Virus record (IMG/VR): IMGVR_UViG_3300030673_000004
Coordinates: 1 to 64,000 of that record
From: a virus
Strand: one strand, 5' to 3'
DNA length: 64,000 nucleotides
This document shows positions 14,655 to 51,413 of this stretch, one piece after another. The stretch's first letter is position 1; each line of letters opens with the position of its first letter. A program made the translations under genes and the position numbers. The notes beneath the pieces are model-generated. The model had not been told where the DNA came from and did not search any database. It saw only the letters and a list, made by a program, of their open reading frames with translations.

Positions 14655-16715
14655 TTAACCAACAGTCAATAACTTAGCCTTGAGCTCCTTGTATGCCTTA
14701 GTGTAGTAAACACCACCAATAGCTTCTCGAAAATCGAACCCATAAGCTCTACGGCTCACGACAAGTACAGGCGGAGCCTGAACACGCTTCACAATGCCCA
14801 TGCCCTTAAACAAGCCCCACCAACGTTCAAGATCTGCAACGAAATCTTCCGCTGTTGGGAAAAGATACTTAAACTCTGTATATTTGTCAACATCAATCTC
14901 AAGATGTTCCAAAAGATCACCCATAATATAATGATTAAGGGTATCCTCAACATTATCGCGATTCCATGGCTCAACCCACGAAGCAAATAGCTTGTCGTGG
15001 TACCAGTAGGTGATAGGATCACCCTTACCTGCATCAACATTCTGATCAGCACTCAACTCCGCCGAGGGCTTAAGTGTGTACAAGGAGTCAGGAATGATCT
15101 TATGATCAAAAGTGTTCTCCACAGCACGAAGAGTTTCATAAACTTCATGCTTCCAGAGATCCGCTAGAGGAGCAAAATACCCCATGTGATCACCGCCCAT
15201 AGTGCAGTAACCAACAGTAAGCTCAGCTTTGTTTCCATTGTTGGGAAACACCGCATGAAACCCAGCAGCCAACATAGCCTGAACACCAGCACCACGCATA
15301 CGAGCCTGGATATTCTCCGTATCATCCCAGAACTCCGTGGCCTTAACGTCCGACTCCCACAGCCCAACATGAACACTGGTCATGAAGTCCGTAACAGACT
15401 TCCCAATAGGAATCTCCAAGTAGCGAATACCCAAATTATCTGCAATTGTTTTTGCAATACCCTTGGTTGTTTCGCTATTAAATTCAGTAGGCATATTAAC
15501 AGCGATCACGTTTTCAGCACCAAGAGCCTTTACATGAAGCAACGTGGACAGTGCCGAGTCCACACCACCACTCAACCCAATCACAGCACGCTTGATGCCA
15601 CCCTGCTCACAAAACTTCTGGATGCCGTAAGCCAAAACGTCATGAAGTTCTGGGTCTTGCTGCTCAGTCTGCCAAGGCGACTCAGCAGCCACTTGGACAC
15701 TCGTAGGAGTAACAGTAACCAAACCCATGCATTCCCTGAGAGGGGGTAGCGCACAGATAACAGCACCGTCCATATAAACAGTAGAGCTCCCGTCAAAAAC
15801 AAAAACATCCTTACCGTTGTTCTGAATACCAACACTGTTGACATAGATCAGAGCATTAAACTCTTGCGAATGCTGAGCAAAACGACGATTGCGAGCACCA
15901 TTCTTGCCTTGAGTAAATGGTGAGCAACTCAAGTTTACATGCACATGCATCTTCCCTGGAGCCGACACGCTGCGACCCCGGCAGTTATGAATAGGCTTAG
16001 TAGCATAATCATCATCCCAACCATCTTCACAGATCGACGGTGTGATATACAAATTGTCTTCACTGTAGATAGACATTATGGGTGTATGAGCAGTGCCGCT
16101 ACGAAAATAACGCTTATCTTCAAACTCACGATAGTTTGGCAGATTCGTTTTATGGTACTCCATAGCGTACCTGCCTAGGATTACAGCGCTATTAAAACGC
16201 TCCCTGCGACCATCTTCGTAATTCGTATCACCCAAGGTCACAGAACCTAAAATAGCAGTAATACCAAGTTCCAGAGCAACAAAGGAAATATCCTGTTTTA
16301 GGTACCCCAGACAATCCTTAAGGAAAGCTGCATCCTCCCAGTCATCACCTACCATGTAGCCAGGAAGAGCCATTTCAGGAAAAACAGCAACCTGAGCACC
16401 AGCATCCTTGGCAAGGTGCAGGTACTTAATGATCTTAGCGGCATTCAAATCAGGGCGCTTTGCAACAACCTCAATCTGACAGATAGCGATAGTCTTTGCA
16501 GTAGTAAGCATTTCGTCGTCCTCTAATTCGTCGTTAATTCCACAAAGCTTAACCTGGTCCCATAGCAGATAATCTTCCTCAGCATCATCTGCCACATGGA
16601 GAAACCCACAGGTACCATTTGCGTGCTTTGGCTTTTGTGCATCTAATCCCCAGTAAGGACATTTGCCTCTGCCATCATAGCAATAGATACCTGTAGGAAT
16701 TTCCAGATGGCACAT
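14655..16715 (-). CDS. nadE: Glutamine-dependent NAD+ synthetase with Cys-rich N-terminal extension
   Basis: 686 residues. After a 70-residue extension comes a nitrilase-type glutaminase (catalytic Glu in VFPEMALPGY, Lys in HKTNLPNYREF, Cys in SICEDGWDDD). The ATP-pyrophosphatase synthetase follows (IGLSGGVDSALS, then TVGYCTMGGDHMGYFAPLAD), which amidates deamido-NAD to NAD+. The start at 16715 lies 1 nt after the pncB stop; an ATG further upstream would overlap pncB by 65 nt. The extension (CHLEIPTGIYCYDGRGKCP and later HANGTCGFL) has five cysteines and looks like a separate small metal-binding module fused to the enzyme. Confidence 0.9.
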   Translation of the reverse strand: MCHLEIPTGIYCYDGRGKCPYWGLDAQKPKHANGTCGFLHVADDAEEDYLLWDQVKLCGINDELEDDEMLTTAKTIAICQIEVVAKRPDLNAAKIIKYLHLAKDAGAQVAVFPEMALPGYMVGDDWEDAAFLKDCLGYLKQDISFVALELGITAILGSVTLGDTNYEDGRRERFNSAVILGRYAMEYHKTNLPNYREFEDKRYFRSGTAHTPIMSIYSEDNLYITPSICEDGWDDDYATKPIHNCRGRSVSAPGKMHVHVNLSCSPFTQGKNGARNRRFAQHSQEFNALIYVNSVGIQNNGKDVFVFDGSSTVYMDGAVICALPPLRECMGLVTVTPTSVQVAAESPWQTEQQDPELHDVLAYGIQKFCEQGGIKRAVIGLSGGVDSALSTLLHVKALGAENVIAVNMPTEFNSETTKGIAKTIADNLGIRYLEIPIGKSVTDFMTSVHVGLWESDVKATEFWDDTENIQARMRGAGVQAMLAAGFHAVFPNNGNKAELTVGYCTMGGDHMGYFAPLADLWKHEVYETLRAVENTFDHKIIPDSLYTLKPSAELSADQNVDAGKGDPITYWYHDKLFASWVEPWNRDNVEDTLNHYIMGDLLEHLEIDVDKYTEFKYLFPTAEDFVADLERWWGLFKGMGIVKRVQAPPVLVVSRRAYGFDFREAIGGVYYTKAYKELKAKLLTVG

Positions 16716-16716
16716 A

Positions 16717-18009
16717 TCAGGCAGCCAACCCGTAAGTGCGCTGCAGGATGTCTTCGTGACGGCTCTCGTTGAAGTAGTCACCTACCATGTAGGTACGCTT
16801 CAGAGCATCTTCATGCACAGCGTCCTCACACATAGCCTTACCAGCAGTGTCGCTAACCTTTGCCACTGGACGATCATTGACTTCAACAGCCTTCATCACG
16901 AGTTGAAGTGCCTTTACACCCAAGTCATTAGTGAAGTCCGTACCAATGCCAAACGATACCTTAGCACGACCAGCAAACACCTTGAGCAGATTCTCACAAG
17001 TATCTGGATTAAGGCCATCCGAGAACATCAGCACCTTCGTCTTAGGATCAATGTGGAGTTTCTCGTAGTGCCGAATAATCTTCTCACCCCAAATGAACGG
17101 ATCGCCCGAGTCATGACGAGCACCAATGTAACTCTGTGCCAAGAGCATGTCAAAGTCACGAAGGAAAGCATCAACACCAACGATATCCGAAAGAGCAATG
17201 CCCGTCTTGGCACGGTAAAAATGCTGCCACAGATCAAGCATATACTTATTCGAGCTGCCAAGCGTCACATTATCCAGAGCCTGACCGACCTCCAAGAACT
17301 CGTGGGCCATTGTGCCACTGAACGGCGTCTTAAACTCGACAGCCATCTGAACATTCGACGTGCCCAAAAAGACACCAGGAATATCAGCAAACTCCTTGAC
17401 AAGATTTTCAACCACGTAGTGCTGCCAAGCAAACGATGCACGACGACGAGTACCAAACTCGCTGAACGTAAATGCATACTGCTTAGCCAGATCCTTATAA
17501 CGCTTGATCTTGTCCTCAAGTCGCTGCATGCCCTCGTACAGATCCAAATCCTTGTACACATCCCGGAAATATGCTTCCTGCGTCATGGTCATGGCATGGA
17601 TCTCAAAATTGGTATTGTACCGAGCTGGACCATGCGTCCGGATGTCCAAAAGATCACCATTGGGCTCAATCGTGATGAAGTCACGGTTGAGCTGAGCCAA
17701 GCGCAGAAATTCAAGGTAAGGACGAGTCATATAAGGAACAGCGTGCAAACGAGCAAGTGTCCCTGGACTCATGCGACGAGTACAAGCCAAGTCCATCTGG
17801 TTGCTCACCTCAGCAGCGTACTTTGCCAGGTTGACACCAGTAGTACGATTGTGAAACTTCTTCGACATCGTAACATGAGGAAGAAGCGCATCATAAACCT
17901 GACCCATAGTCAGGAAGTAGAAGTCGATGTCATCGAAGGCATGGTTCCGCCCCGCAAGCTTCGACTGATGCTTCTGTGCGAATTCTTCCAAAGTAATATG
18001 TTCTGCCAT
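16717..18009 (-). CDS. pncB: Nicotinate phosphoribosyltransferase
   Basis: 430 residues, first gene of the NAD operon; makes nicotinate mononucleotide from nicotinate and PRPP. Family features: an N-terminal YFLTMGQVYD segment, EFGTRRRASFAWQ near residue 190, FLGTSNVQMA, the catalytic-histidine region PFSGTMAHEFLEVGQ near 235, RHDSGDPFIWGEKI near 300 and the phosphate-binding FGIGTDFTND near 370. Length and motif order match PncB rather than nicotinamide-specific Nampt. Preceded by TAGGAG in a structured leader. Confidence 0.9.
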   Translation of the reverse strand: MAEHITLEEFAQKHQSKLAGRNHAFDDIDFYFLTMGQVYDALLPHVTMSKKFHNRTTGVNLAKYAAEVSNQMDLACTRRMSPGTLARLHAVPYMTRPYLEFLRLAQLNRDFITIEPNGDLLDIRTHGPARYNTNFEIHAMTMTQEAYFRDVYKDLDLYEGMQRLEDKIKRYKDLAKQYAFTFSEFGTRRRASFAWQHYVVENLVKEFADIPGVFLGTSNVQMAVEFKTPFSGTMAHEFLEVGQALDNVTLGSSNKYMLDLWQHFYRAKTGIALSDIVGVDAFLRDFDMLLAQSYIGARHDSGDPFIWGEKIIRHYEKLHIDPKTKVLMFSDGLNPDTCENLLKVFAGRAKVSFGIGTDFTNDLGVKALQLVMKAVEVNDRPVAKVSDTAGKAMCEDAVHEDALKRTYMVGDYFNESRHEDILQRTYGLAA

Positions 18010-36520: not shown

Positions 36521-36549
36521 AATATACATTTACTTTGTATAAAAGTCAA
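36521..36549 (-). promoter_or_regulatory. Promoter of the membrane-protein operon
   Basis: TTGACT (36549-36544), 17-nt spacer with TACAAAGTAAATG, TATATT (36526-36521) on the minus strand; a member of the phage promoter family overlapping the stop codon of thyX. Confidence 0.75.
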
Positions 36550-38264
36550 GTATCTATGCTAGAAAGTTTCTTCTGGATACAATTTTCTGCTAAGGCCCGA
36601 GTAGCATTACTAGAATGATCTACATAGGGAAACAACCAAGGGAGGTATTTACTGACCAAAGCCGCCACCTCACAGGTAATAGTTCGATATGAAATATGAC
36701 CAGAGGGCTGAGATCTAAGTTCTGTTAAATAGACTAGCTGCCGAAGTGAACATGTATATGTCCAAAGCACAGGATGACCAAGCAATCTTAAATAAGCAGA
36801 AGAATTCGATTGACGAGGAACGTCACTTTTTAAGCAAGCAGAATATTCTGCATTTTTAAGACCTGTAAGGGCACTAACAGCATTACGACACAGTACTTGT
36901 AATGACATAGGCATCTCATCAAACCCAGGAAATTCAATCACACCAACAGAGTCTAAGAAGCTTACTATATCCTGTTTGCCTGCCCGATGACGCTGCAAAT
37001 CACGATAAGCACCGTAATCCATGAGCACATCAAGTGTCACATGAATATGATCTAAGTACCGGGGAACATCCTTATGATAATCAGTGCGAACATTTTTGTA
37101 ATGCTCTTCTGCAACAGCTAAAATATTATCAAGCTCCGGCTCATCAGCACTAGAATGCAACTGAACGAGATTAGTACTTAAACTATCTGTAATGCCACAA
37201 ATAGGTCTAAAATAGCCAGGAACAGATCGCTTAGCATAGAAAGCAATAAATGAAGCAGCAGTACGTTGGCGCAAATCCTTTGGAAGCGTAACTTGCACAG
37301 TAGCTCCAACAGAAGAACACTTGGAAGTCAACACAAGGGCATGTTCTAAGTCTTCAACTTGGCCTAAAGAGGTACGCCTAGGTTCTGGCCAGAAACACCC
37401 AGACGTTTCAATAGGATCAAATCCATCAAACGAAGTATCAGGTCCGACATGCGTAAACAAACCAGGATTAATCTTAAATACTTCGAATAGCAGATCCTCG
37501 GCCAAAGAACGAACTTCGCTAAGAGGATGTGCAAGTAGTCTAGAGATTAATCTAGATGTCTCACGTGTTGGGATAGTAGCACCAAAGGAAGTCTTAACAC
37601 ACACAGGGAGATAATAGCGAGCCTTATCAAACGCCTGAGCTTTTGTTGTTCTACGACGAGCCGCGTCATTAACAAACTGTGCTGGATCTGACTCCTGAAA
37701 ATGTCGATCAGACCAATAAGCAAGCAGTTGCTCATAAGCAGTAAACACTTGAGTAAACACATCACGATATTTAGGCAGTAAACAACCTGCCGAGTCAAAA
37801 CAGTTGAGAGGCAGAGCCAAGTCATCAACAGATGCTACACTAAAGGGCAGATATCGTGTGGATTTCTCCTGATAGGCACCAAGCTCCGAATCTTCAAATG
37901 CTTTAGCTGCCAAAATAGAACAGCCCTCAATAGCAAAACGATCTATAGAAGAGTCTTTTAATGAGTTATGCCCATACTCAACTGCCCACTTACGCAAAAA
38001 AGATTCCGCCTTACCCAGAGCATGACCCAGGTAAGCAGAATTAGAATCACGTATTGCAGTAGCAAATTCAGACACAGTTAAACCGGAGTCTCTAAATAAA
38101 GACACCAACAACCGCTGCCTTATTGGCTCATGAGAACGAGAATAGGAACCAACAAGGTATGCCCACAGAGATGATGGCATATTATCAGTAGCACAAGCAA
38201 CACGACTATCAGTAGTTGTGAAAAAGTAAAGAACAACAGTCTGCTCATCTTCTGTAAAGATCAT
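36546..38264 (-). CDS. thyX: ThyX-like flavin-dependent thymidylate synthase, tandem two-domain form
   Basis: 572 residues, about twice the usual ThyX. Each half has remnants of the fold: EYGHNSLKDSS and YQEKSTRYLPF in the first, then a linker region with ARRRTTKAQAFDKARYYLPV, and RHRAGKQDIVSF in the second, which corresponds to the ThyX signature RHRxxSxNExS without its canonical second half. The protein would methylate dUMP with reduced flavin and folate. Duplicated, partly divergent ThyX proteins are known from phages; the altered signature means activity should not be assumed. Start at 38264 behind GGGAG. Confidence 0.7.
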   Translation of the reverse strand: MIFTEDEQTVVLYFFTTTDSRVACATDNMPSSLWAYLVGSYSRSHEPIRQRLLVSLFRDSGLTVSEFATAIRDSNSAYLGHALGKAESFLRKWAVEYGHNSLKDSSIDRFAIEGCSILAAKAFEDSELGAYQEKSTRYLPFSVASVDDLALPLNCFDSAGCLLPKYRDVFTQVFTAYEQLLAYWSDRHFQESDPAQFVNDAARRRTTKAQAFDKARYYLPVCVKTSFGATIPTRETSRLISRLLAHPLSEVRSLAEDLLFEVFKINPGLFTHVGPDTSFDGFDPIETSGCFWPEPRRTSLGQVEDLEHALVLTSKCSSVGATVQVTLPKDLRQRTAASFIAFYAKRSVPGYFRPICGITDSLSTNLVQLHSSADEPELDNILAVAEEHYKNVRTDYHKDVPRYLDHIHVTLDVLMDYGAYRDLQRHRAGKQDIVSFLDSVGVIEFPGFDEMPMSLQVLCRNAVSALTGLKNAEYSACLKSDVPRQSNSSAYLRLLGHPVLWTYTCSLRQLVYLTELRSQPSGHISYRTITCEVAALVSKYLPWLFPYVDHSSNATRALAENCIQKKLSSIDT

Positions 38265-38280
38265 TCGTTTCTCCCAAAAC

Positions 38281-38306
38281 AAAAAGGCAAGAGTTTCCTC
38301 TTGCCC
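38281..38306 (-). terminator. Terminator upstream of thyX
   Basis: GGCAAGAG (38286-38293) pairs with CTCTTGCC (38298-38305), loop TTTC; on the minus strand followed by TTTTTGTTTT. It ends the transcript of the gene at 38332. Confidence 0.85.
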
Positions 38307-39045: not shown

Positions 39046-42000
39046 TTAAAAGCCTTCAGCTACCTCGTCAAACGAAGGATCAGATTCATCTAAACCAACA
39101 CAGGACGACCACCCATGAGACAAGTGCTTTTCCTTGAACTCGGCGCAACCGCAGGGTACTTCCTCTGTCGTACCATCTGCATTTGTAGTCTTCTTCTTTT
39201 TAGTGCAAATCGTTGGATGCTCCGACCATTGATAGGCAGTACCACAGTGCTTACAGACCCACTGCTTTCCTTGACTTACATCCATATCAATGTCTAAGGG
39301 CACGGACATCTTATGCCCGAACAATTCTTCAATAACCTGAGGCGTCTTAGTAACAAAAATATAGCGAGTTAGTCTAGCAATATACCTAAGATCCTCTGCC
39401 GTATTTGGGCACTCTATAAGGACAGAGTCATGCACAGCATTCACTAACTTGTACACCTCATGTACACCCTGATTATACAGCTCTTCAAACAGAAGAGATG
39501 TAGCAAGAGAAGCATAATCACCCGTGGCGGACTGAATAGGTGTATTAACCGCCCTACGAAAATCACGCTGCATCAATGAACGATTATTAGAGTACACATT
39601 ACGAAGCCAGCGTCGTCGTCCAAAAAATGTCTCAACATAGCCATGAGCTTTAGCAAATTCCACACGATCATCAAGCCAAGCCTTACCAACAGAAAACTTA
39701 GAATAGAAACTTTGGCACAACTCCTCAGTCTCCTCTACCGTCTTACCAATTTGTGCCGCAATGCTAGGTGTACCTCTAACATACATCAAACCAAACGTAA
39801 TTGATTTTGTTGCTGTTCGGAGTGTCTTCTCAACCTTCTGACCTTCAGGTACCCCAAACATCAAACGAGCATTCTGCACATGAATGTCCGACATAGCATC
39901 AGACTTAGCTTTTATCTCAGGCTGCGGATCCTTAAGAAAAGCACATTTCATTGCATAAGCGTCAATAAAATTCTGCACAAGACCAGGATCTCGTGACATT
40001 TCGGCCCACATACGAACTTCAGCGGCACAGAAGTCTGCCTGAAAAATGACTTTTCCTGGAGGTGCTATAAAGATATTCTTAATAGCCTTTTTTTCAATAC
40101 CATCACCACGGGGAACCTGCTGCATATTTGGATCTACACAATTATGGACGCACAACTCACCGGCAAAAAAGTTATGGTGATCCTCTACAGTGATGTCATA
40201 AACAGGTACAGAAACATTTAAGCGTTCAACACGAATAATCTTATGATTATTAGGTACAGTATTTTTTAGTATAGCAGTATGGTAACTGATATGCTCATGG
40301 GCTGTGAGCATAGAAAGGTTACTAGGATTGTTATTATAGTGATCCCAATCCTTATGGTGGATATGATAACCCTTAGGAATTTTTACCTTATTAGCATGCT
40401 CAAACACAAAACGATGATCGGCGTACTCCTCATGAACTCCAGTAAACAGTAAAGAACCTTTACGAATACGCTGAAGAGCATAAACACTAGTACCCACAGC
40501 TAAAGCACTTGCAGGCACCCACCCCTGATCTACGGTCTTTACTAAATGATCATCAGTAAGATCTAAATAACCATAATTTACACTTTTACCGGTGTGTCCA
40601 GATTTCCAGTGCAGTCGAATGATCTCACGAACACCTGTTTGCCAGGCTTTTGTAACACGTGAAAGTGTAGGTTTATTGTCAGATGTCAAGCAGTAAGCAA
40701 TATCACCAACTTGCACCTGTTCAATAGGTATACCCTTAGGATTTAAGTTGAGATTTCGGACAATCTCAACCAAAGTACCTTTAGCAATACAACTCAAACG
40801 ACCAGTCTGGGTACCGTGTAAAAGAAACTTTCCATGAATACGCCCATCTACATAATCTGTCTTACCTGGATTTGTAAAACTAGCATTAAATTTGCGGATG
40901 TACGACGAATCCAGCTTTTGCAGACCTTGATACTCAGAAAACAAAGCTACAACAGGATTTCCGATGTTCTCTTCCTGAAAATCAGAATCGGCAGAATAAT
41001 TACCCTCATCATTAGCGGGATACTTAAAACCATTATCACTTGTGAAAAACAGAGCCGTCTTGTGAGTGTGAGAATTTAGATCAAGCACCCAGGGCATAGT
41101 AAACGTTGTCTGCACACCAACACTATTAGTCAATAGCTCCCTATTAACCGCCTGACATACAGGATCCTTCTTAAGCTCAGTAGAGATATCACGCACTCTC
41201 TTCAGAATAGGAGAAGCAGGTGATCCCAACTGGATAAGATGTCGCAAATCAGCCATCATACCAAAATGAGTCATAGCACTATAGCATTTGGTTTTACGAC
41301 TATCAGATACAAGCAACATAGTCATGAACTCGTTTTCAATGCCTAGATTACGTGCTTGTGCAATTAAAGCATGCAATCCGCGCAATGTAGCATACGGATC
41401 CATACCGGAGTAAGAGACAAATTTCGGTAAAGGTAACCCTAGAAGAGTGCCATCTTTACGGGCATCCAACATCTCCTGATCATAGTGGTGAAACCCAAGA
41501 AACTCTACTACAAGCTGTTTTAGACCATTCGGTGCCTGACCACGCATGGTATAAACACGGTCTTTTCTAGCCGAATCCAAAAAATGCATACCAAGCATTG
41601 TATCAACAACAGGACGACGAGGCATAACATGATACTTACAATAGAACTGAGCATTATCAAACTGTGCATTATGTAGAGTCCAATAGGAAATCTTAGAAGA
41701 ACCATCATCTAATAAATCATGCACCATCTGATCAATCTGGGCATTCTCATCTATTGAGAAAGGATTATCATCATGCTGTCTTAATAAGACATAGCCATGA
41801 TTCGGATCATGCGCAAACTGGATAGAAGCTAATTGTGTATTATGGGCATAGTTCAAATTACCTGTTTCAGTATCAAGACCAACAGGACCAGCGTGCTCAT
41901 ATCTAAGAAAATCTAAGTACTCTTTAACAAGCTTAAATGTATCTAAATTTATCTCCTCACCCTTAAGATGATAAGGATTGTTTATAAGAAACCTTACCTT

Positions 42001-42447
42001 AGTAAGATTTTCACCAAGAAACAAAAAATCCTCCACACGTGCATAGATAGCACGATATGTAGGAAAGCAATGAACAGGAACGGAACCCATACCATAGTCA
42101 AATGTATGTATTGACCACTGGATTTCATAGTTCTCCCATTTACCTATCGAGGGTACCAAGAATTTTGACATCCATGGACCTAAAGCAACAAGAGATCGTG
42201 GTTTATACTTACGAAAAGCCTCTAATAAGGCAGCACCGTTTGCACGAGCAACAGCCATAAGGTCGTCAACTTCACCAACCTGATCAGCAAGTGTAATAAT
42301 TACAAAGCTATCCAAGTAATGAGATAGATCATTTATGAACTTGATACCAACAGGATCGTTAAGATTCGCGACTTTTTCTTGGGGCTGTATTAAGATAGCC
42401 TGTACTCTGCCGTCCAATGCTTGTCCAAGTTTTTCGTACACTAACAT
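39046..42447 (-). CDS. polA: DNA polymerase I-type replicative polymerase with intein
   Basis: 1133 residues including a 217-residue intein (about 553-769). N-terminal 180 residues unclassified. The 3'-5' exonuclease has all its acidic motifs: GPVGLDTETGNLNY, LHNAQFDNAQF, and SYSGMDPYATLRGL. The polymerase has TGRLS (split by the intein), motif A FQADFCAAEVRMWAE, motif B RTATKSITFGLMYVRG and motif C VNAVHDSVLIE. A C-terminal zinc ribbon (WVCKHCGTAYQW; CTKKKK; VPCGCAEF) is unusual for family A. Probably the phage replicase, working with DnaB-type helicase and clamp. The gene overlaps its upstream neighbour by 89 nt, so the start is somewhat uncertain. Confidence 0.92.
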   Translation of the reverse strand: MLVYEKLGQALDGRVQAILIQPQEKVANLNDPVGIKFINDLSHYLDSFVIITLADQVGEVDDLMAVARANGAALLEAFRKYKPRSLVALGPWMSKFLVPSIGKWENYEIQWSIHTFDYGMGSVPVHCFPTYRAIYARVEDFLFLGENLTKVRFLINNPYHLKGEEINLDTFKLVKEYLDFLRYEHAGPVGLDTETGNLNYAHNTQLASIQFAHDPNHGYVLLRQHDDNPFSIDENAQIDQMVHDLLDDGSSKISYWTLHNAQFDNAQFYCKYHVMPRRPVVDTMLGMHFLDSARKDRVYTMRGQAPNGLKQLVVEFLGFHHYDQEMLDARKDGTLLGLPLPKFVSYSGMDPYATLRGLHALIAQARNLGIENEFMTMLLVSDSRKTKCYSAMTHFGMMADLRHLIQLGSPASPILKRVRDISTELKKDPVCQAVNRELLTNSVGVQTTFTMPWVLDLNSHTHKTALFFTSDNGFKYPANDEGNYSADSDFQEENIGNPVVALFSEYQGLQKLDSSYIRKFNASFTNPGKTDYVDGRIHGKFLLHGTQTGRLSCIAKGTLVEIVRNLNLNPKGIPIEQVQVGDIAYCLTSDNKPTLSRVTKAWQTGVREIIRLHWKSGHTGKSVNYGYLDLTDDHLVKTVDQGWVPASALAVGTSVYALQRIRKGSLLFTGVHEEYADHRFVFEHANKVKIPKGYHIHHKDWDHYNNNPSNLSMLTAHEHISYHTAILKNTVPNNHKIIRVERLNVSVPVYDITVEDHHNFFAGELCVHNCVDPNMQQVPRGDGIEKKAIKNIFIAPPGKVIFQADFCAAEVRMWAEMSRDPGLVQNFIDAYAMKCAFLKDPQPEIKAKSDAMSDIHVQNARLMFGVPEGQKVEKTLRTATKSITFGLMYVRGTPSIAAQIGKTVEETEELCQSFYSKFSVGKAWLDDRVEFAKAHGYVETFFGRRRWLRNVYSNNRSLMQRDFRRAVNTPIQSATGDYASLATSLLFEELYNQGVHEVYKLVNAVHDSVLIECPNTAEDLRYIARLTRYIFVTKTPQVIEELFGHKMSVPLDIDMDVSQGKQWVCKHCGTAYQWSEHPTICTKKKKTTNADGTTEEVPCGCAEFKEKHLSHGWSSCVGLDESDPSFDEVAEGF
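40141..40791 (-). other. Intein with HNH endonuclease in DNA polymerase I
   Basis: A 217-residue insertion starting at Cys of CIAKGTLVEIVRN (block A) and ending FAGELCVHN before the C-extein Cys of CVDPNMQQVPRG. Block B-like HNFFAGE precedes the end (VEDHHNFF). The middle carries an HNH homing endonuclease: GYHIHHKDWDHYNNNPSNLS, LTAHEHISYH. The insertion splits the conserved TGRLS/DPNMQ template-binding motif, a classic intein site. All splice-junction residues (Cys1, His-Asn, Cys+1) are present. Confidence 0.9.
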
Positions 42448-44265: not shown

Positions 44266-46887
44266 TTACCCGGCCTCAACAATGTTAGAGTCATCAAGCA
44301 CAGGCTCAGGAAGTCGTCCCTCCGCACGATCAATCATCTCCTGCTCAATCTCAAAAGCAAACCCGGAACGTATCTGGCGAAGACAATGCTTCCAAAGCCC
44401 CTGCTTATTTTCCGGCGCTTCAATGATGTTCTTCAACGTCATATAAGGCATTGCGGAATCAACAAAATTAGTACCAAAAATAGAAGGCTTTGGGGCATCG
44501 GGAGCGACACCACGAACTTCCAACTTGTACTTTCCGTTGGATGCCTTAAGCAACTGACCTGTGGCATCCAAGTACTGAAGCACATCATATGTCTGATCAA
44601 TACCATCGCCAGGATGTCCTTCATGCTCCATACGGATACGAATAGCCCCCTCACGATAGGGTGTATACATCTTATTCTTAGTATTTTTCAACTTTGAATA
44701 TGTGTACTTATCTGTACCACCGTTAATAGAAGGCTCTTCATTGTAAGTAGCACCACCTTCAGTACGCTTAGCACCAGCAGTACTCGGAGATACCCTACGA
44801 ACCTGAAAACGAGCATCTGTGTAAAACTTAAGAGCCTCACCTCCGGGCTCAACTTCCGGACTGTTATGCACAATAAAACCATTACATGGATTACCTGCCA
44901 TGTAATTGTGATTATCTTCCACAGTAATGTCGTACTTGGTCCGCAACCTAAACATCCGAGCAGACCCACGAGTAATAGAAAGAACAGGAACATCTACATG
45001 AGTATATTCCGGTGTAGACGATAATACGTAATCATGAAATCTTCCTTGATATGCGGCTGGTAGTTTATACCACATACACGCAGGAACATAGGAAACAATC
45101 AAATCAAAAAATTTATACACAGCAGCAGCGGTAATAACAAAAGAACCCCCATGGCGAACAACGTGCTCAATCCCGTAACGAGCAAAAACAGAAGAGAGAG
45201 CAGCCAACTCATCGGGACAATTACGAAAACGCTTAGCCGAAATTGTTATTCTGTACGACCCGGACGAACGAAGAGCCAAATTACCGTCATCCATGTACCA
45301 AACAGCTAAACTAAGTGCGGTCATACGAGAAGCAACATGAAGAGCACTACGAGTGTGCCCAGATTGTTTTGATGCTTTTACCCAGCACCCAAGCTCGTAA
45401 GTAGAGTTTGATACGTAACTAACACGACCACAACTATCAATACGCCTGAAAGAGAAATAAGGTGACAGCAAAGACATTTTCCACTGCAGATACTTATCAT
45501 TCTCAGAATCAGCCAAGCGAAAGAAGCCGTTACTGGACCGAGCATCCTGCTGCAAAGCAATATCACCAACGGACATACCAGCAAACAACTCTAACAAAGT
45601 ACCATTAAACTGAGACAGATACTGTGTCCTAACAAGATCACCAACCTTGATATCTTCGGCAGGCACCCACGTACCATTCGCAAATATCTCATGATTTGGT
45701 GTAACGGTAACACCAGCAACGCCGTTTGGTGTATCAATTGCGGCTGTCTTAATACTCACCCAATCGTCTGGAGAATTAACAACACCATTATTGTGCCAAC
45801 TTACAATGCTTTTAGGCTCTAAAGTACCAGTAGTTTCGTTTAGAGACCACACCTGACCGGTAATACGCTGTTCTACAATCTCACGCATGGTAAAAGATCG
45901 GCCATCTACAAAGGGAATCTTAACATCAGAATGAAGACAACCCATCGCCATAGGCTTCATGCGGATCTGATTATTACCCAAAAGAGTACACCGGCGACTA
46001 GTAAGTGCCGCTTTAACCTTCTTCAGGTTATCCGAGAACATTCGTGCTTGAATACCAATAGCACCACTCTTATCACCCTTTTCCTGCAAACTTTCTTGTA
46101 CAAGTTCAGGTAGCATTGCAGGAAAAGAATCAATCAAGAACAGATACTGAGGAGCACCAGCCGCAGCCGATTCTGCCCACTGGCCTTCAGGAACACGCTC
46201 CCACCACTGCCCATTAGGGTCCTGCTTGATCTCAGGCAGAGCTAGCAGAATACCAGCTATTGCATTGAATATATCTTCCCCAATATGGTGATTAGTGTAT
46301 CTAACCATAGGAAGAATGTCCCAATGCTTGCCATCTTTGGAACGTCGTCCTTGGATATCAAGTAGAGACATATCAAAACGATTGAAAATACGCTCTGCAT
46401 AAGTTGGATCTCGGGCAGACTCCGGGTCAAACCAATAAACAGGGATGTTTGAATTAACAAACCAAGGAACAAGGGTGTTAAACAGTGTGGATTTTCCAGA
46501 CTGCTCAGGTCCAGCATTACTAATGAATTTACCAATAGGTAGACCACCACCCATAGCAAAGTCATAACTCAAGCACCCCGTAGGAACACTATCTTCAATG
46601 TATCCACCAATATTATGCTGCTGCGCAAAAAAGTCCAACCGCTTCTCAATAGCGTCAACATTATCCTGCAGTTCGTGAAACTGCTTAGTCATCATAATTG
46701 ATGGCAATAAAATACGACCAGATTTAACAGAAGCAGGAATACCAGGAGCTTCAATTTCACCCTCAGTAGCTACGGGGATTTCGGTAATATCAATAGATGG
46801 ATCAGCATCTAGCCAAGCAAGAGCTGGACGAACTAACTGTTCACTAGGAACAATAGTATCTTGTTTTGGTGTAGCTTTACGCGGCAT
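44266..46887 (-). CDS. recA: RecA-family recombinase with intein
   Basis: 873 residues including a 359-residue intein (317-675), so about 514 after splicing. Walker A is GPEQSGKSTLFN (126-137), Walker B is QYLFLIDSFPAM, and the L1/L2 region has LLGNNQIRMKPMAMG followed after the intein by SPEVEPGGEALKFYTDARF. The first 60 residues and last 100 differ from cellular RecA. It would drive strand exchange together with Mre11/Rad50, UvsW-like helicase and RuvC-like resolvase. Confidence 0.9.
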   Translation of the reverse strand: MPRKATPKQDTIVPSEQLVRPALAWLDADPSIDITEIPVATEGEIEAPGIPASVKSGRILLPSIMMTKQFHELQDNVDAIEKRLDFFAQQHNIGGYIEDSVPTGCLSYDFAMGGGLPIGKFISNAGPEQSGKSTLFNTLVPWFVNSNIPVYWFDPESARDPTYAERIFNRFDMSLLDIQGRRSKDGKHWDILPMVRYTNHHIGEDIFNAIAGILLALPEIKQDPNGQWWERVPEGQWAESAAAGAPQYLFLIDSFPAMLPELVQESLQEKGDKSGAIGIQARMFSDNLKKVKAALTSRRCTLLGNNQIRMKPMAMGCLHSDVKIPFVDGRSFTMREIVEQRITGQVWSLNETTGTLEPKSIVSWHNNGVVNSPDDWVSIKTAAIDTPNGVAGVTVTPNHEIFANGTWVPAEDIKVGDLVRTQYLSQFNGTLLELFAGMSVGDIALQQDARSSNGFFRLADSENDKYLQWKMSLLSPYFSFRRIDSCGRVSYVSNSTYELGCWVKASKQSGHTRSALHVASRMTALSLAVWYMDDGNLALRSSGSYRITISAKRFRNCPDELAALSSVFARYGIEHVVRHGGSFVITAAAVYKFFDLIVSYVPACMWYKLPAAYQGRFHDYVLSSTPEYTHVDVPVLSITRGSARMFRLRTKYDITVEDNHNYMAGNPCNGFIVHNSPEVEPGGEALKFYTDARFQVRRVSPSTAGAKRTEGGATYNEEPSINGGTDKYTYSKLKNTKNKMYTPYREGAIRIRMEHEGHPGDGIDQTYDVLQYLDATGQLLKASNGKYKLEVRGVAPDAPKPSIFGTNFVDSAMPYMTLKNIIEAPENKQGLWKHCLRQIRSGFAFEIEQEMIDRAEGRLPEPVLDDSNIVEAG
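44863..45939 (-). other. Intein with LAGLIDADG endonuclease in RecA
   Basis: 359 residues, starting CLHSDVKIPFVDGRSF and ending NGFIVHN before Ser of SPEVEPGG. Splicing blocks: VTVTPNHEIFANGTWVPAED (block B), YDITVEDNHNYMAG (block F) and VHN/S (G). ALSLAVWYMDDGNLALR is a LAGLIDADG-type acidic motif and FARYGIEHVVRHGG a partner segment. The insertion lies in the DNA-binding L2 region between the glycine and the NPE-equivalent SPE of RecA. Confidence 0.9.
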
Positions 46888-48643
46888 TATTTTCCTCCAA
46901 GGAAAGGATTGGGAGCAAAGAAATAGGTTGCATGAAGGAGCACTTCACACATTTACACACTGTCGAAAAGTTTGCAGACAGCACAGTTAAAGCTTTTGTA
47001 TGTCCGCAAGAAGGACATAAAAAATCTACAAGAGCACCAGTTTTAATAGGCACAACTTGCCCAGAGTACAAGGCCACTCCAAATGTATCTGACTCTGAAT
47101 GAAGACACATAGTTGTCGTATCTATGTCAATTCCGGAGGAGCTACTGGGAAGAAGAGAAGCCAACTCAACGGGAAGAACATCATGAAATATCGCGGATAC
47201 TTGTGCCAACAAAGCACTAACATCCACGCAAGAATCTACCATAGTATGCAAAGACAGTAGGTCGAGCGACTTATCAAAGCACAAAGATGATTGAGATATA
47301 AGAGAGTAATAGAGATAGCCAAAAACAGATAATGATATTTGATTGTCTACATAAACAGCACCACACTTATCCAAATAGTAAAGAGCCGTAAGTATCTCAC
47401 GTGATGGCATACCATAATCAAAGAGAGCATTAAAAATAGAAGCAAAAGACACAGTAAAATGAGGACAGTATTTCACAGTTACAGGAAGAGTTGTCCATGT
47501 AGGGAGAATTCGCAAATTAACAGCCTCTTCGGCATCAGACAAAGCCCACCAATCACCAGGAGTACCATCAACGGTGGATATAGCTAACGGTATCTGCTGA
47601 TCCTGTATTGATAGAACAAGATTATTACAAATCAACTTTTCTTGTATTGATCCACAATATGCTTGCAACGTTCTACGCACAAGATAATCATAAATCTGAG
47701 TAACATATGCAGTACAGCCAGAAGGAAGTTCTTTACCTGTTACATAAACACAAGGACACACAGGACCCAAGGTTATATTACTGGGATCTACACTATACTC
47801 AGATACTAACGTTGAAACCGCCCATGTATGGACATCGCTAGGTACAATAGAATCTGTTTCGTAACATGAAAGACAGCCACACGAATATAGTATGTCTAAA
47901 GATTTGCCAACAACTAGAATAGGCAGATCAAGATCTTTAAGTATATCTGACACAACAGTCCGAGACTGTAACACAGGAGCAGGGTATACAACAGTATCAA
48001 TACAGGATGTTTGTTTAGATTCTATTAAAGCACTATCTACATAAGAAAACGAAGCTAAATCCAGGAGTTTTAAGATTCCAGGAGTATTTTTCAAATACAC
48101 GCTAAAATGTGCGGTACTATCAGTAGATACTTGCTCATACATCCGAGCAAGAACACCAAGAACGCAAAGCACAGATCTACGATACATAGGTTTAGGACAC
48201 ATGAAGTAGTAAGTACTTAGCAAAGCCTGTAGATCATGCTCTATTAAATGATCACAAGCATATAAAATAGAATTATTAGAACTTGGAGGTTCTAATAGAG
48301 GCTCAACATCTAAACCATAAACAAGGTCAGAAGGAAAAAAGAAAAAAATCTGTAAAGGAATACCAATAAGAGCTTTTTTAACACCCCAAGCAACGTCATA
48401 CCAAAAGGACACAGGTGGAAATACAACAAAAACTGTGTCATAACGAGTTGCAAGTTTACGTAACTCAGCAACATGCTTCGCCACAGCAGACAGCTTCGGA
48501 TAACCAGATGCGTTCAAAGCTATGTCGGTACGTGTTAACGTGTACAAAGGAAGAGGAACATCACGCACAGTGATGTCCTCCCCAAAAGCACACCTAAGCA
48601 CAGCACCATTACGAGGGTTGTCCGTAAGGACAAGAACACCCAT
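46877..48643 (-). CDS. Degenerate type IA topoisomerase-like protein
   Basis: 588 residues with no obvious active enzyme match, but the order of segments follows bacterial topoisomerase I. VLVLTDNPRNGAVLRCAFGE aligns with the ESPAKAKTI start but lacks the Glu. YDTVFVVFPPVSFWYDVAWG aligns with the DPDREGEAIAW TOPRIM motif but lacks D-x-D-x-E. ITLGPVCPCVYVTG aligns with the GRVQTPAL strand. FTVSFASIFNALFDYGMPSR to CGAVYVDN aligns with FTTSTLQ...GLITYMRTDS but lacks the catalytic Tyr and Arg. The C-terminus ends in a zinc finger (FLCPSCGHTKAL; CKCVKCSF), as topoisomerase I does. So probably an inactive structural derivative. It sits between SSB-like and recA genes, overlapping recA by 11 nt. Confidence 0.5.
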   Translation of the reverse strand: MGVLVLTDNPRNGAVLRCAFGEDITVRDVPLPLYTLTRTDIALNASGYPKLSAVAKHVAELRKLATRYDTVFVVFPPVSFWYDVAWGVKKALIGIPLQIFFFFPSDLVYGLDVEPLLEPPSSNNSILYACDHLIEHDLQALLSTYYFMCPKPMYRRSVLCVLGVLARMYEQVSTDSTAHFSVYLKNTPGILKLLDLASFSYVDSALIESKQTSCIDTVVYPAPVLQSRTVVSDILKDLDLPILVVGKSLDILYSCGCLSCYETDSIVPSDVHTWAVSTLVSEYSVDPSNITLGPVCPCVYVTGKELPSGCTAYVTQIYDYLVRRTLQAYCGSIQEKLICNNLVLSIQDQQIPLAISTVDGTPGDWWALSDAEEAVNLRILPTWTTLPVTVKYCPHFTVSFASIFNALFDYGMPSREILTALYYLDKCGAVYVDNQISLSVFGYLYYSLISQSSLCFDKSLDLLSLHTMVDSCVDVSALLAQVSAIFHDVLPVELASLLPSSSSGIDIDTTTMCLHSESDTFGVALYSGQVVPIKTGALVDFLCPSCGHTKALTVLSANFSTVCKCVKCSFMQPISLLPILSLEENNAA

Positions 48644-48661
48644 AACGTACTCCTAGTTGTA

Positions 48662-48940: not shown

Positions 48941-50098
48941 TCAAAAACCAGATGTCTCAGGACGACGACCCTGCGGCGGCTGCGGCACAGGGAAATCACT
49001 ATCAGACATAAAAGAGGGCAAAGACGCGCCACCAAAAGCAGATGCACCCGAATCACCACCGAAAGTAGGCACAGAAGACTGTGCGTCACCAAAAGTAGGT
49101 ACGGATGCATTCTCATGACCAAAAGCTGGAACAGAATCATCTGCACCAAATGTCGCAATTGAAGCTGCCGGGGTGCGCTGTGAGGGTACAGACGACGGAG
49201 GTGCATCAAAACCAGCCGTTGGGATAGATGAAGGAAGAGAACCAGCAGAAGCCCCACTAAAACTACCACCAAAACCACCATCAGATGGATTCTGATGCTG
49301 AATGCCTATATTAGTGTCTCGGAGCAACTCCGGATACTTCCAGAAAGCCAAAGAGCGCGAAATGTCAGCAGGATCCTGAAGACTTTCGCGATAAATCTCC
49401 TCCAGTGGCTTAATGCTGCTAGAAACAAAGTTACGCATATCTTGGGGCAAGGGAAAAGCATTACCACGCTGAACCGTATACATCTTAGCCGGAATAGCAC
49501 TAGGGTTATACTTTACAATGATGGTACCGCCATTATCGTAATCCGCAATGTCTACCATCTTATTCCCAGTAGCATCTGTCATAATGTCAAGCGCTTCTTG
49601 CAAACCCTCAGCAACAGTTTTAGGAAACCGAAAAACCTTCAGTTCCGGCACCCACTGTTGGGTCTTAGGATTTTTATACAAGCACCAAGCAAAATACTGC
49701 AGACGATCCTTTACATAGTCATAGTAAGTACCACAGCAATCACAAGAATGCACACCTGTCTCAGGGTTTGGATACGACTTCTCGTCAATAAAATCAAAAT
49801 CGGGACAGACAACATCAAAAGCTTTTGCATTCTGTGGAATAGCTGCGGGTGCCTTATCAACTTGACGATCACGATTATGCCAACGCTTAAGCTCACGAGC
49901 ATGATCAAGAGCCAAGTATACAGTATGCAGCTTATGACAAAACGGTGAACCTACAGGACGAATTTCTACAGGCAAACCCGGAAAATCATGAAGAGCAAGA
50001 ATAGGCAACTGGGCATCCCAGCGAGGCTTAGCTGTCTGCTTGGGAGCCATGCCAGAAAATGTCTTTACACGGGGGGATGAGTTGGATGAAGAGTACAT
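48941..50098 (-). CDS. Putative single-stranded-DNA-binding protein with FG-repeat tail
   Basis: 385 residues. The core (about 20-260) has a zinc-knuckle CDCCGTYYDYVKDRLQYF with other Cys/His nearby, and LQYFAWCLYKNPKTQQWVPE followed by LKVFRFPKTVAEGL resembles the gp32-type OB fold in large phages. The tail is disordered with regularly spaced FG: ATFGADD, PAFGHEN, PTFGDAQ, PTFGGDS, SAFGGAS. The leader carries a hairpin and three 10-nt repeats up to the ribosome binding site, like the gp32 translational operator of T4, which supports the SSB call. Sits in the recombination cluster. Confidence 0.65.
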   Translation of the reverse strand: MYSSSNSSPRVKTFSGMAPKQTAKPRWDAQLPILALHDFPGLPVEIRPVGSPFCHKLHTVYLALDHARELKRWHNRDRQVDKAPAAIPQNAKAFDVVCPDFDFIDEKSYPNPETGVHSCDCCGTYYDYVKDRLQYFAWCLYKNPKTQQWVPELKVFRFPKTVAEGLQEALDIMTDATGNKMVDIADYDNGGTIIVKYNPSAIPAKMYTVQRGNAFPLPQDMRNFVSSSIKPLEEIYRESLQDPADISRSLAFWKYPELLRDTNIGIQHQNPSDGGFGGSFSGASAGSLPSSIPTAGFDAPPSSVPSQRTPAASIATFGADDSVPAFGHENASVPTFGDAQSSVPTFGGDSGASAFGGASLPSFMSDSDFPVPQPPQGRRPETSGF

Positions 50099-50240: not shown

Positions 50241-51413
50241 TCAGCCAAGGACGAAAGAAAGCTGCCGAAATGTCTCATACTCAAGATCCTCGGGATCTAT
50301 ACACAACTTATCAACAGGAATAGACTCATAATCATAAAACAGGAACAAAACCAACCGCTCCATAGCTGTAAGTTCTGCAGTATAATGAGCTAACTGCTGC
50401 GACATATCAACAGTTTCTCTATCCTGCTCCAGAGCCACATCAGTGTAAGCCTCAGGCTCATCACCTTCTTCATCCAGATCATCAATCAAAGATGCAACAT
50501 TCTGCATGTCATGTAGAGCAACAGCATTCTCCACTAGACGTATGTCTACACCCTCAAGCATACTTATCTCGTCTAATGTCGCGTTAGGGTTCTTCTTACG
50601 ACGCCGATCAACAGCAACACGCAGCTTATACATACGATCAGGTATACGGATGAATGAATTACTCTGCTTAATAGAGTAAATCATCCTGTTATTGACCCAC
50701 ATGTTAACCTGACTAGCAAAAGAACCGTACTCTGAGTCATACTTGCTTAAAGCTATAGCTACACCTTCATACCCATGCTGGTAGTGATCCATGAATACTT
50801 CAGGCTCTCTAGAGAAAGATCTAGCTAACGTACCAACACGACGCAAAAAAGGTACAGACACACGGCGCTCAATATCTTTTATACGAGGCCAGTTAGCTTT
50901 AAGGCTATTCAGTATTCCCCATATACGATGATATGCTACCGAGGAGGAAACCCCAAAGAGTAATAACTTAACAGGAACACGATCATCTAAAGGAATATCA
51001 GACTGAGCTGAAACTTGAAATTCCAACTGAGGTATCTGATCGTACAAATCCGATAAAACACTCAACCAGTACGCACGATAAACGCGAGTATACCGCCTAA
51101 CAGCGTACAGCCAGTCAGGCTCACCGATAGCATGAACAAAACTACATAAGTAAACGTCGTTTACTGTAGAAAATGTCTTTTTTGTACCTTTACGGTATGC
51201 ATGATACACCAAATTAAGATAAAAAGACCGCACTAAAGAACACTCAGCATCAATCACAGCTAAGCTATCATAAATAAGGTCATCCATCAAGTTAACTAAG
51301 TAAGCAGCATCAGCATTATCTAAAAGACAAAACTTAAAACTCTCATTAAGAGTATCCGTAGCCTGAGCAAAAGACCTGTCATTGACATTATTAGAAGTCA
51401 AATAATCAGACAT
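50241..51413 (-). CDS. Sigma-70-family sigma factor (large)
   Basis: 390 residues. The C-terminal half is sigma-like: HYQHGYEGVAIALSKYDSEY (region 2.1-2.2), FASQVNMWVNNRMIYSIKQS (2.3-2.4), SFIRIPDRMYKLRVAVDRRR (region 3), NATLDEISMLEGV (3) and LTAMERLVLFLFYDYESIPV (region 4). The N-terminal 200 residues are unlike host sigma factors. Together with the small sigma at 11817-12407 this gives the phage two specificity factors; the long one may serve late genes. No clear promoter was found upstream (51414-51525 holds only the divergent gap to 51526). Confidence 0.75.
   Translation of the reverse strand: MSDYLTSNNVNDRSFAQATDTLNESFKFCLLDNADAAYLVNLMDDLIYDSLAVIDAECSLVRSFYLNLVYHAYRKGTKKTFSTVNDVYLCSFVHAIGEPDWLYAVRRYTRVYRAYWLSVLSDLYDQIPQLEFQVSAQSDIPLDDRVPVKLLLFGVSSSVAYHRIWGILNSLKANWPRIKDIERRVSVPFLRRVGTLARSFSREPEVFMDHYQHGYEGVAIALSKYDSEYGSFASQVNMWVNNRMIYSIKQSNSFIRIPDRMYKLRVAVDRRRKKNPNATLDEISMLEGVDIRLVENAVALHDMQNVASLIDDLDEEGDEPEAYTDVALEQDRETVDMSQQLAHYTAELTAMERLVLFLFYDYESIPVDKLCIDPEDLEYETFRQLSFVLG

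Follow-up and report, generated by a model that had tools for sequence, protein, structure and literature searches.

P0001, the gene just before uvsX in the virus record studied here, probably encodes a pseudoenzyme derived from a type IA topoisomerase, which would serve the UvsX/SSB module as an accessory that binds proteins; we assign a probability of about 0.6 to this reading. Judged from the sequence, common descent of P0001 with the type IA topoisomerases is rather likely. The window, that is the whole stretch of DNA analysed, comprises 64,000 nucleotides and corresponds to positions 1-64000 of the 375,537-base virus record IMGVR_UViG_3300030673_000004. The reading frame of P0001 starts with an ATG on the minus strand, runs for 588 codons without any internal stop and is preceded, 6 nucleotides 5′ of the ATG, by a likely ribosome-binding site. 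Its 3′ end overlaps the start of uvsX by 11 nucleotides. P0001 is a real gene, and the coordinates, full length and absence of stops in the original prediction were exact (Table 1).

Along the same strand, the sigma factor gene is followed by those of the SSB-like protein, the 91-residue ORF, P0001 and UvsX with its intein, and then by an ORF with a weak likeness to phosphoesterases, a member of PHROG 631 (function not assigned) and an intein-containing family A DNA polymerase. The order sigma-SSB-UvsX is also found in PaBG, in HRDY3 and Lu11, which add a small ORF between the sigma and SSB genes, and in Motura, with a dUTPase gene and a small ORF in between. A gene of the size of P0001 just before UvsX was present in none of six named phage records (PaBG, HRDY3, Lu11, Motura, NCTB and GR11A); in NCTB and GR11A this place is taken by hypothetical proteins of other lengths. 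Because P0001 overlaps uvsX and lies close to the SSB-like gene, a partner within the UvsX/SSB-like module is suggested. As to the neighbours themselves, the intein of UvsX carries a LAGLIDADG endonuclease domain, and that of the polymerase (39046-42447, minus strand) an HNH endonuclease domain, the intein match of the latter falling just below the Pfam cut-off. By eye, the 91-residue ORF appears to have a thioredoxin-like fold without CxxC (YSQKPSD, VPALLLYNVDG); it gave no Pfam match, and PHROG rows only at E values of 0.13-0.37.

Table 1. Features of P0001 and its neighbourhood (positions in the window; residue numbers refer to P0001)
Feature	Position	Strand	Basis
P0001, orphan, proposed type IA topoisomerase-derived pseudoenzyme	46877..48643	-	ORF reading, no homolog found
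Likely ribosome-binding site AGGAG	48650..48654	-	sequence, 6 nt before ATG
UvsX/RecA recombinase with intein	44266..46887	-	start codon inside 3′ end of P0001
91-aa ORF, between SSB-like gene and P0001	48662..48937	-	no weighty family match
SSB-like protein	48941..50098	-	weak: PHROG E 0.0041; 24% identity to PaBG SSB
Sigma-70-type factor	50241..51413	-	family search
TOPRIM-like N-terminus, residues 1-94, aligned to topoisomerase 1-100	48362..48643	-	profile alignment, hhalign
D8-N9-P10 replacing E-S-P (TopA Glu9)	48614..48622	-	MAFFT, profile traceback
Residues 76-83, PPVSFWYD, replacing the D-x-D-x-E metal motif	48395..48418	-	hhalign, MAFFT
Residues 255-265, CGCLSCYETDS, putative counterpart of the catalytic-tyrosine segment (ITYMRTDS)	47849..47881	-	MAFFT
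YVDNQIS (431-437), misassigned tyrosine site; strand after RPSTYA helices	47333..47353	-	MAFFT
Second colinear match, residues 314-452 to topoisomerase 368-512 (LYKLIWERF ... HFT ... PTELG)	47288..47704	-	hhalign; PPAR and the GR of GIGRPST fall in gaps
Zinc-ribbon-like C-x2-C-x16-C-x-C-x2-C, residues 543-568	46940..47017	-	Cys spacing (five Cys)

P0001 is an orphan. The sole hint from Pfam was a zinc ribbon (DUF2387, E 0.13), and five separate pieces of the protein returned zinc-ribbon and chance rows only; PHROGs, the PDB sequences and the phage, plasmid and genome-contig sets gave no match, and NCBIfam gave weak zinc rows together with one chance row. Pattern scans of IMG/VR and GTDB revealed no relative; the viral contig scans used exact 8-mers from three different stretches of P0001, which relatives below about 60% identity (an estimate) could escape. 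No paralog was found within the record itself, tblastn detected nothing in 35 virus records (30 from UvsX relatives, part of those gathered, and 5 carrying topoisomerases), and the best non-self phmmer match among 5902 open frames of the gathered loci had an E value of 0.84. In the nearest virus records, identity in UvsX or PolA does not exceed 34% (43 loci from the UvsX scan, the best 80 of 237 from the PolA scan); the set searched may lack records of very close relatives. PF01131 matched neither P0001 nor any other part of the record, and PF01751 did not match P0001. In 42 related virus records no PF01131 match lay above the cut-off; the two sub-threshold matches were to 441-residue proteins, SprT-like by eye, and were judged to be chance. 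Run on 668 frames of related loci, a type IA topoisomerase profile reached an E value of 0.9 at best. Family searches that yield nothing past weak zinc-ribbon rows favour the view that P0001 is an unrelated orphan whose N-terminus is Rossmann-like, whose C-terminal zinc ribbon is an ordinary one and whose topoisomerase likeness was lucky among many families. We regard this explanation as quite possible and do not favour it.

Against such a coincidence stand two separate matches, which occur in order, with one consistent offset and from the right N-terminus. A first profile, of 23 type IA enzymes, combined 14 viral ones with E. coli TopA and TopB and 7 others from proteobacteria; a later one was built from 34 type IA sequences. 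In a composition-corrected profile alignment, the N-terminal match ended at residue 92 of P0001 and 98 of topoisomerase with a score of 25.3, which was equalled by none of 1000 shuffles and by none of 214 natural open frames from this and related phages. The traceback obtained with looser gaps begins at residue 1 of both sequences. When the match was retested, no shuffle out of 400 did as well with the whole protein, and one out of 400 with residues 1-180 alone against the whole profile. Using the 34-sequence profile, hhalign aligned residues 13-94 to topoisomerase 24-100 (P 0.004); in the cruder test by MAFFT --add, 3 of 150 shuffles were as good in the TOPRIM segment. By these tests the N-terminal TOPRIM part is in register, with a likeness that is above chance yet weak.

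The second match, obtained by hhalign with the same 34-sequence profile, extends over 131 columns (P 0.07) and pairs IYDYLVRR with LYKLIWER, the two HFT motifs with each other, and the helices that surround RPSTYA. In the comparison of P0001 with this profile, none of 250 shuffles was as good in top score, and none of 250 in chain score, here by a hair (54.1 versus 53.9). For residues 93-588 alone, an equally strong match on the expected offset was given by none of 400 shuffles and none of 127 natural frames, within an offset band of 22-75 that was chosen post hoc, after the match, around the values to which the TOPRIM and zinc ends pointed. At any place, a match of 22.1 was reached by 16 of the 400 shuffles and 21 of the 127 natural frames. 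The likeness of residues 314-452 would be weak, and above chance only if colinearity is required.

Among 202 sequences compared by hhalign with the 23 topoisomerases (P0001, its reverse and 200 shuffles), P0001 had the highest single score, and its chain score was 72.5 versus at most 43.6 in the shuffles and the reverse; none of 149 natural frames reached this chain score (best 67.0). In the -glob mode P0001 ranked 55 of 202. The HMMER profile of the 23 enzymes did not separate P0001 from its shuffles, 12 of 300 scoring above it. A template restricted to the core was matched better by one of 400 shuffles and by none of 147 natural sequences. In semiglobal profile alignment with tight gaps, 8 and 9 of 200 shuffles did as well as P0001, as did 1 of 200 in local profile alignment (gaps 5/0.15); when gaps were loose, the whole protein was outscored by 7 of 214 natural frames. 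From residue 93 on, 16-474 of 600 shuffles and 125-188 of 214 natural frames were as good in five settings, and 4-285 of 600 shuffles and 127-209 of 306 natural pieces in four banded settings. Window-wise Fisher values beyond the TOPRIM part were 0.57 for four windows, 0.05 for six and 0.10 for eight. With MAFFT --add, shuffles as good numbered 20 of 150 for the total, in which reversed P0001 outscores P0001, 100 of 150 for the middle and 18 of 150 for the tail; MAFFT holds TDS and HFT in register with the topoisomerases. Of the topoisomerase scaffold without active site that had been proposed, the TOPRIM part above chance, the loss of the metal acids described below and, if colinear, residues 314-452 stand, but residues 95-313 carry no significant sequence signal for type IA likeness in several designs. 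This silent stretch speaks for an unrelated orphan, as does the choice of the topoisomerase family after the sequence had been read, by which the P values would need correction for the families considered. The profiles of HolA, UvsX, SSB and PolA, in contrast, gave nothing with P0001 in hhalign (P 0.51-0.97), which argues against it.

Active-site residues were mapped in a MAFFT alignment with 16 topoisomerases (row L108) and are given in E. coli TopA numbering, in which we take Glu9, K13, H33, R114, R195, Y319 and H365 to be the numbers of the aligned columns. At the metal site, E9 corresponds to D8, D111 to P76, D113 to V78 and E115 to F80. Elsewhere, K13 is replaced by N12, H33 by P32 and R114 by S79, R195 is retained as R155, and H365 falls in a gap. 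In the tyrosine segment Y319 is C260 and R321 is E262, T-D-S being retained; GIGRPST becomes GM--PSR, and PPAR is missing. The original prediction had correctly read ESP as DNP, which holds in MAFFT and in the profile traceback, and DPDREGE as PPVSFWYD, which holds in MAFFT and hhalign. It was mistaken in equating YMRTDS with YVDNQIS, which pairs with the topoisomerase 'YVEKKGN' after the RPSTYA helices; in MAFFT the true counterpart is SCYETDS (259-265), within 'GCLSCYETDSIV'. P0001 would share with bacterial and phage topoisomerase I (TopA; PF01131, PF01751) an arrangement in which the TOPRIM start is followed by the tyrosine segment, the RPSTYA-type helices and the C-terminal zinc ribbon, as well as TDS and HFT in register. 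That every catalytic residue is replaced is true of the D-x-D-x-E acids and of the Arg, whereas the change from E9 to D8 is conservative and the Tyr is uncertain: Y261 lies one residue past the Tyr column, and a one-residue gap could restore a Tyr.

A type IA enzyme would be recognised by its Mg-binding acids (the Glu of ESP and D-x-D-x-E), by a catalytic Tyr with an Arg two residues on, and by a family profile match above cut-off. In P0001 this set of acids is lacking, the Arg is lost while Y261 adjoins the Tyr column, and PF01131 is silent on both the protein and the whole record. PMC7823277 describes the acidic triad D111, D113 and E115 as taking part in Mg interactions and numbers Arg-321 of E. 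coli TopA. Since the acids and the Arg are lost, no cleavage is predicted. It is very improbable that P0001 is a still active, unusual type IA topoisomerase, in which, with the alignment slipped by one residue, Y261 would be the nucleophile and the metal would be held by other residues: TDS is retained, a Tyr stands one residue from the catalytic column and D8 could replace Glu9, but the D-x-D-x-E acids have all given way to P, V and F, the Arg has become Glu, gaps fall at PPxR and GR, and K+R amount to only 34. A Cys cluster CxCx2C (C255, C257 and C260) lies at the position of the tyrosine segment, and a CPC at 296-298; with 23 Cys about one such cluster is expected (a rough estimate), and we rejected it as more than chance.

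The C-terminal zinc finger that had been announced is present as five suitably spaced Cys, the ribbon being read solely from this spacing. The tail matches the topoisomerase tail with 33 of 1000 shuffles as good and is not family-specific; such ribbons match many families, a point in favour of an unrelated orphan. The composition of P0001 points the same way, being far from that of real topoisomerases: 34 K+R, 56 D+E, a net charge of -22 and 15% charged residues, as compared to 77-103 K+R, a net charge of -4 to +23 and 26-32% charged residues in the first 600 residues of the 23 profile enzymes. Its Cys content is the highest among 26 ORFs measured (23 Cys, 3.9%). Charge, Cys content and the lack of any HMM match set P0001 apart from TopA, together with the Cys in the Tyr column and the gaps (PPxR, GR, H365 region). 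If the alignment is right, a non-enzymatic role follows, as had been predicted. Its DNA-binding or gate-shaped version is, however, made less likely by the 34 K+R versus 56 D+E and by the gaps at PPxR and GR (GIGRPST). Because the charge differs from that of all 23 profile enzymes, the old groove is unlikely to bind DNA, and the low charge and acidity speak for a loss of DNA handling.

The AlphaFold model of P0001 alone had a pLDDT of 33.4, and Foldseek found no match for it in the PDB at E 0.001. Guided by 16 topoisomerases, the prediction rose to a pLDDT of 50.3 (pTM 0.44), with ten-residue blocks over 60 at 1-30, 51-100, 161-170, 221-250, 311-330 and 401-420. The guided model superimposed on E. 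coli TopA (1cy2) with Z 21.6 and an rmsd of 3.7 over 412 aligned residues, a circular result as the input alignment consisted of topoisomerases; the best Foldseek E value, 4.9e-16, is subject to the same input. We therefore rejected this model as proof of fold: it shows merely that P0001 can be threaded there. The secondary-structure agreement of both models (0.67, with none of 548 shifts as good) was likewise rejected as evidence because both share the query. The toroidal type IA fold of P0001 is putative.

A clamp-loader delta (HolA)-like subunit, to which the likeness by eye of 'VVFPPVS..' to what we take to be the FPP stretch of HolA and a clamp-loader-type ORF of the same phage (58855-59973) could point, was rejected as hardly credible at all, since 222 of 400 shuffles were as good in the profile test (15 rows, of which at least one, L245, is apparently a wrong ORF and was still included), hhalign gave P 0.85, and there was no Pfam match (PF06144).

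According to the reading that we prefer, a topoisomerase-derived pseudoenzyme, the ancestor of P0001 would have been a type IA topoisomerase, whose TOPRIM, gate domains, CAP/tyrosine helix and C-terminal zinc ribbon would still stand in the original order. In its descent P0001 would have given up most of its positive charge, together with the acids that bind Mg, the catalytic Arg and, probably, the nucleophilic Tyr. P0001 would neither cut nor pass DNA, and would most likely be a protein-binding accessory of the recombination/replication module; its gene lies between the SSB-like and UvsX genes in a packed cluster on one strand. The gene, its position, its charge and, given the alignment, the residue changes are shown; the whole fold and the inactivity are inferred, as are a shared message, a role in protein binding and the partner. 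A bolder version, which we consider doubtful, sees P0001 as a type IA topoisomerase made over by a giant phage into a structural ring that does not cut: having lost metal site and nucleophile, with CxCx2C in the place of the tyrosine and an acidic surface, retained at full length and coupled to UvsX, it would be a protein scaffold of the recombination machine or a decoy for the host partners of TopA. If the preferred reading is true, P0001 would be a phage type IA pseudo-topoisomerase retained whole without its chemistry, and the gate scaffold itself would be useful in phage recombination. We found no report of such a protein in the parts of the open PMC literature consulted, which is no proof of absence.

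GyrA-like and GyrB-like genes adjoin each other at record positions 62992-64743 and 65175-65504, on the minus strand and across the window end. The pair is a predicted phage-borne type II topoisomerase, GyrB being called by a Toprim match and by eye; because the phage has these genes of its own, topology would be served otherwise than by P0001. According to PMC7824862, jumbo phages carry a two-subunit topoisomerase II, and PaBG, Lu11, Motura and NCTB a topoisomerase I with a tyrosine-recombinase-type domain. Like P0001 these are phage-borne topology proteins, but they have other folds. In PaBG, HRDY3 and Lu11, UvsX is followed a few genes later by one annotated 'DNA topoisomerase', and the Lu11 topoisomerase protein had no match in this virus record. 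Elsewhere in the window, the minus strand encodes an NAD synthetase with a carbon-nitrogen hydrolase domain (14655-16781) and a ThyX domain inside a 578-residue frame (36546-38282).
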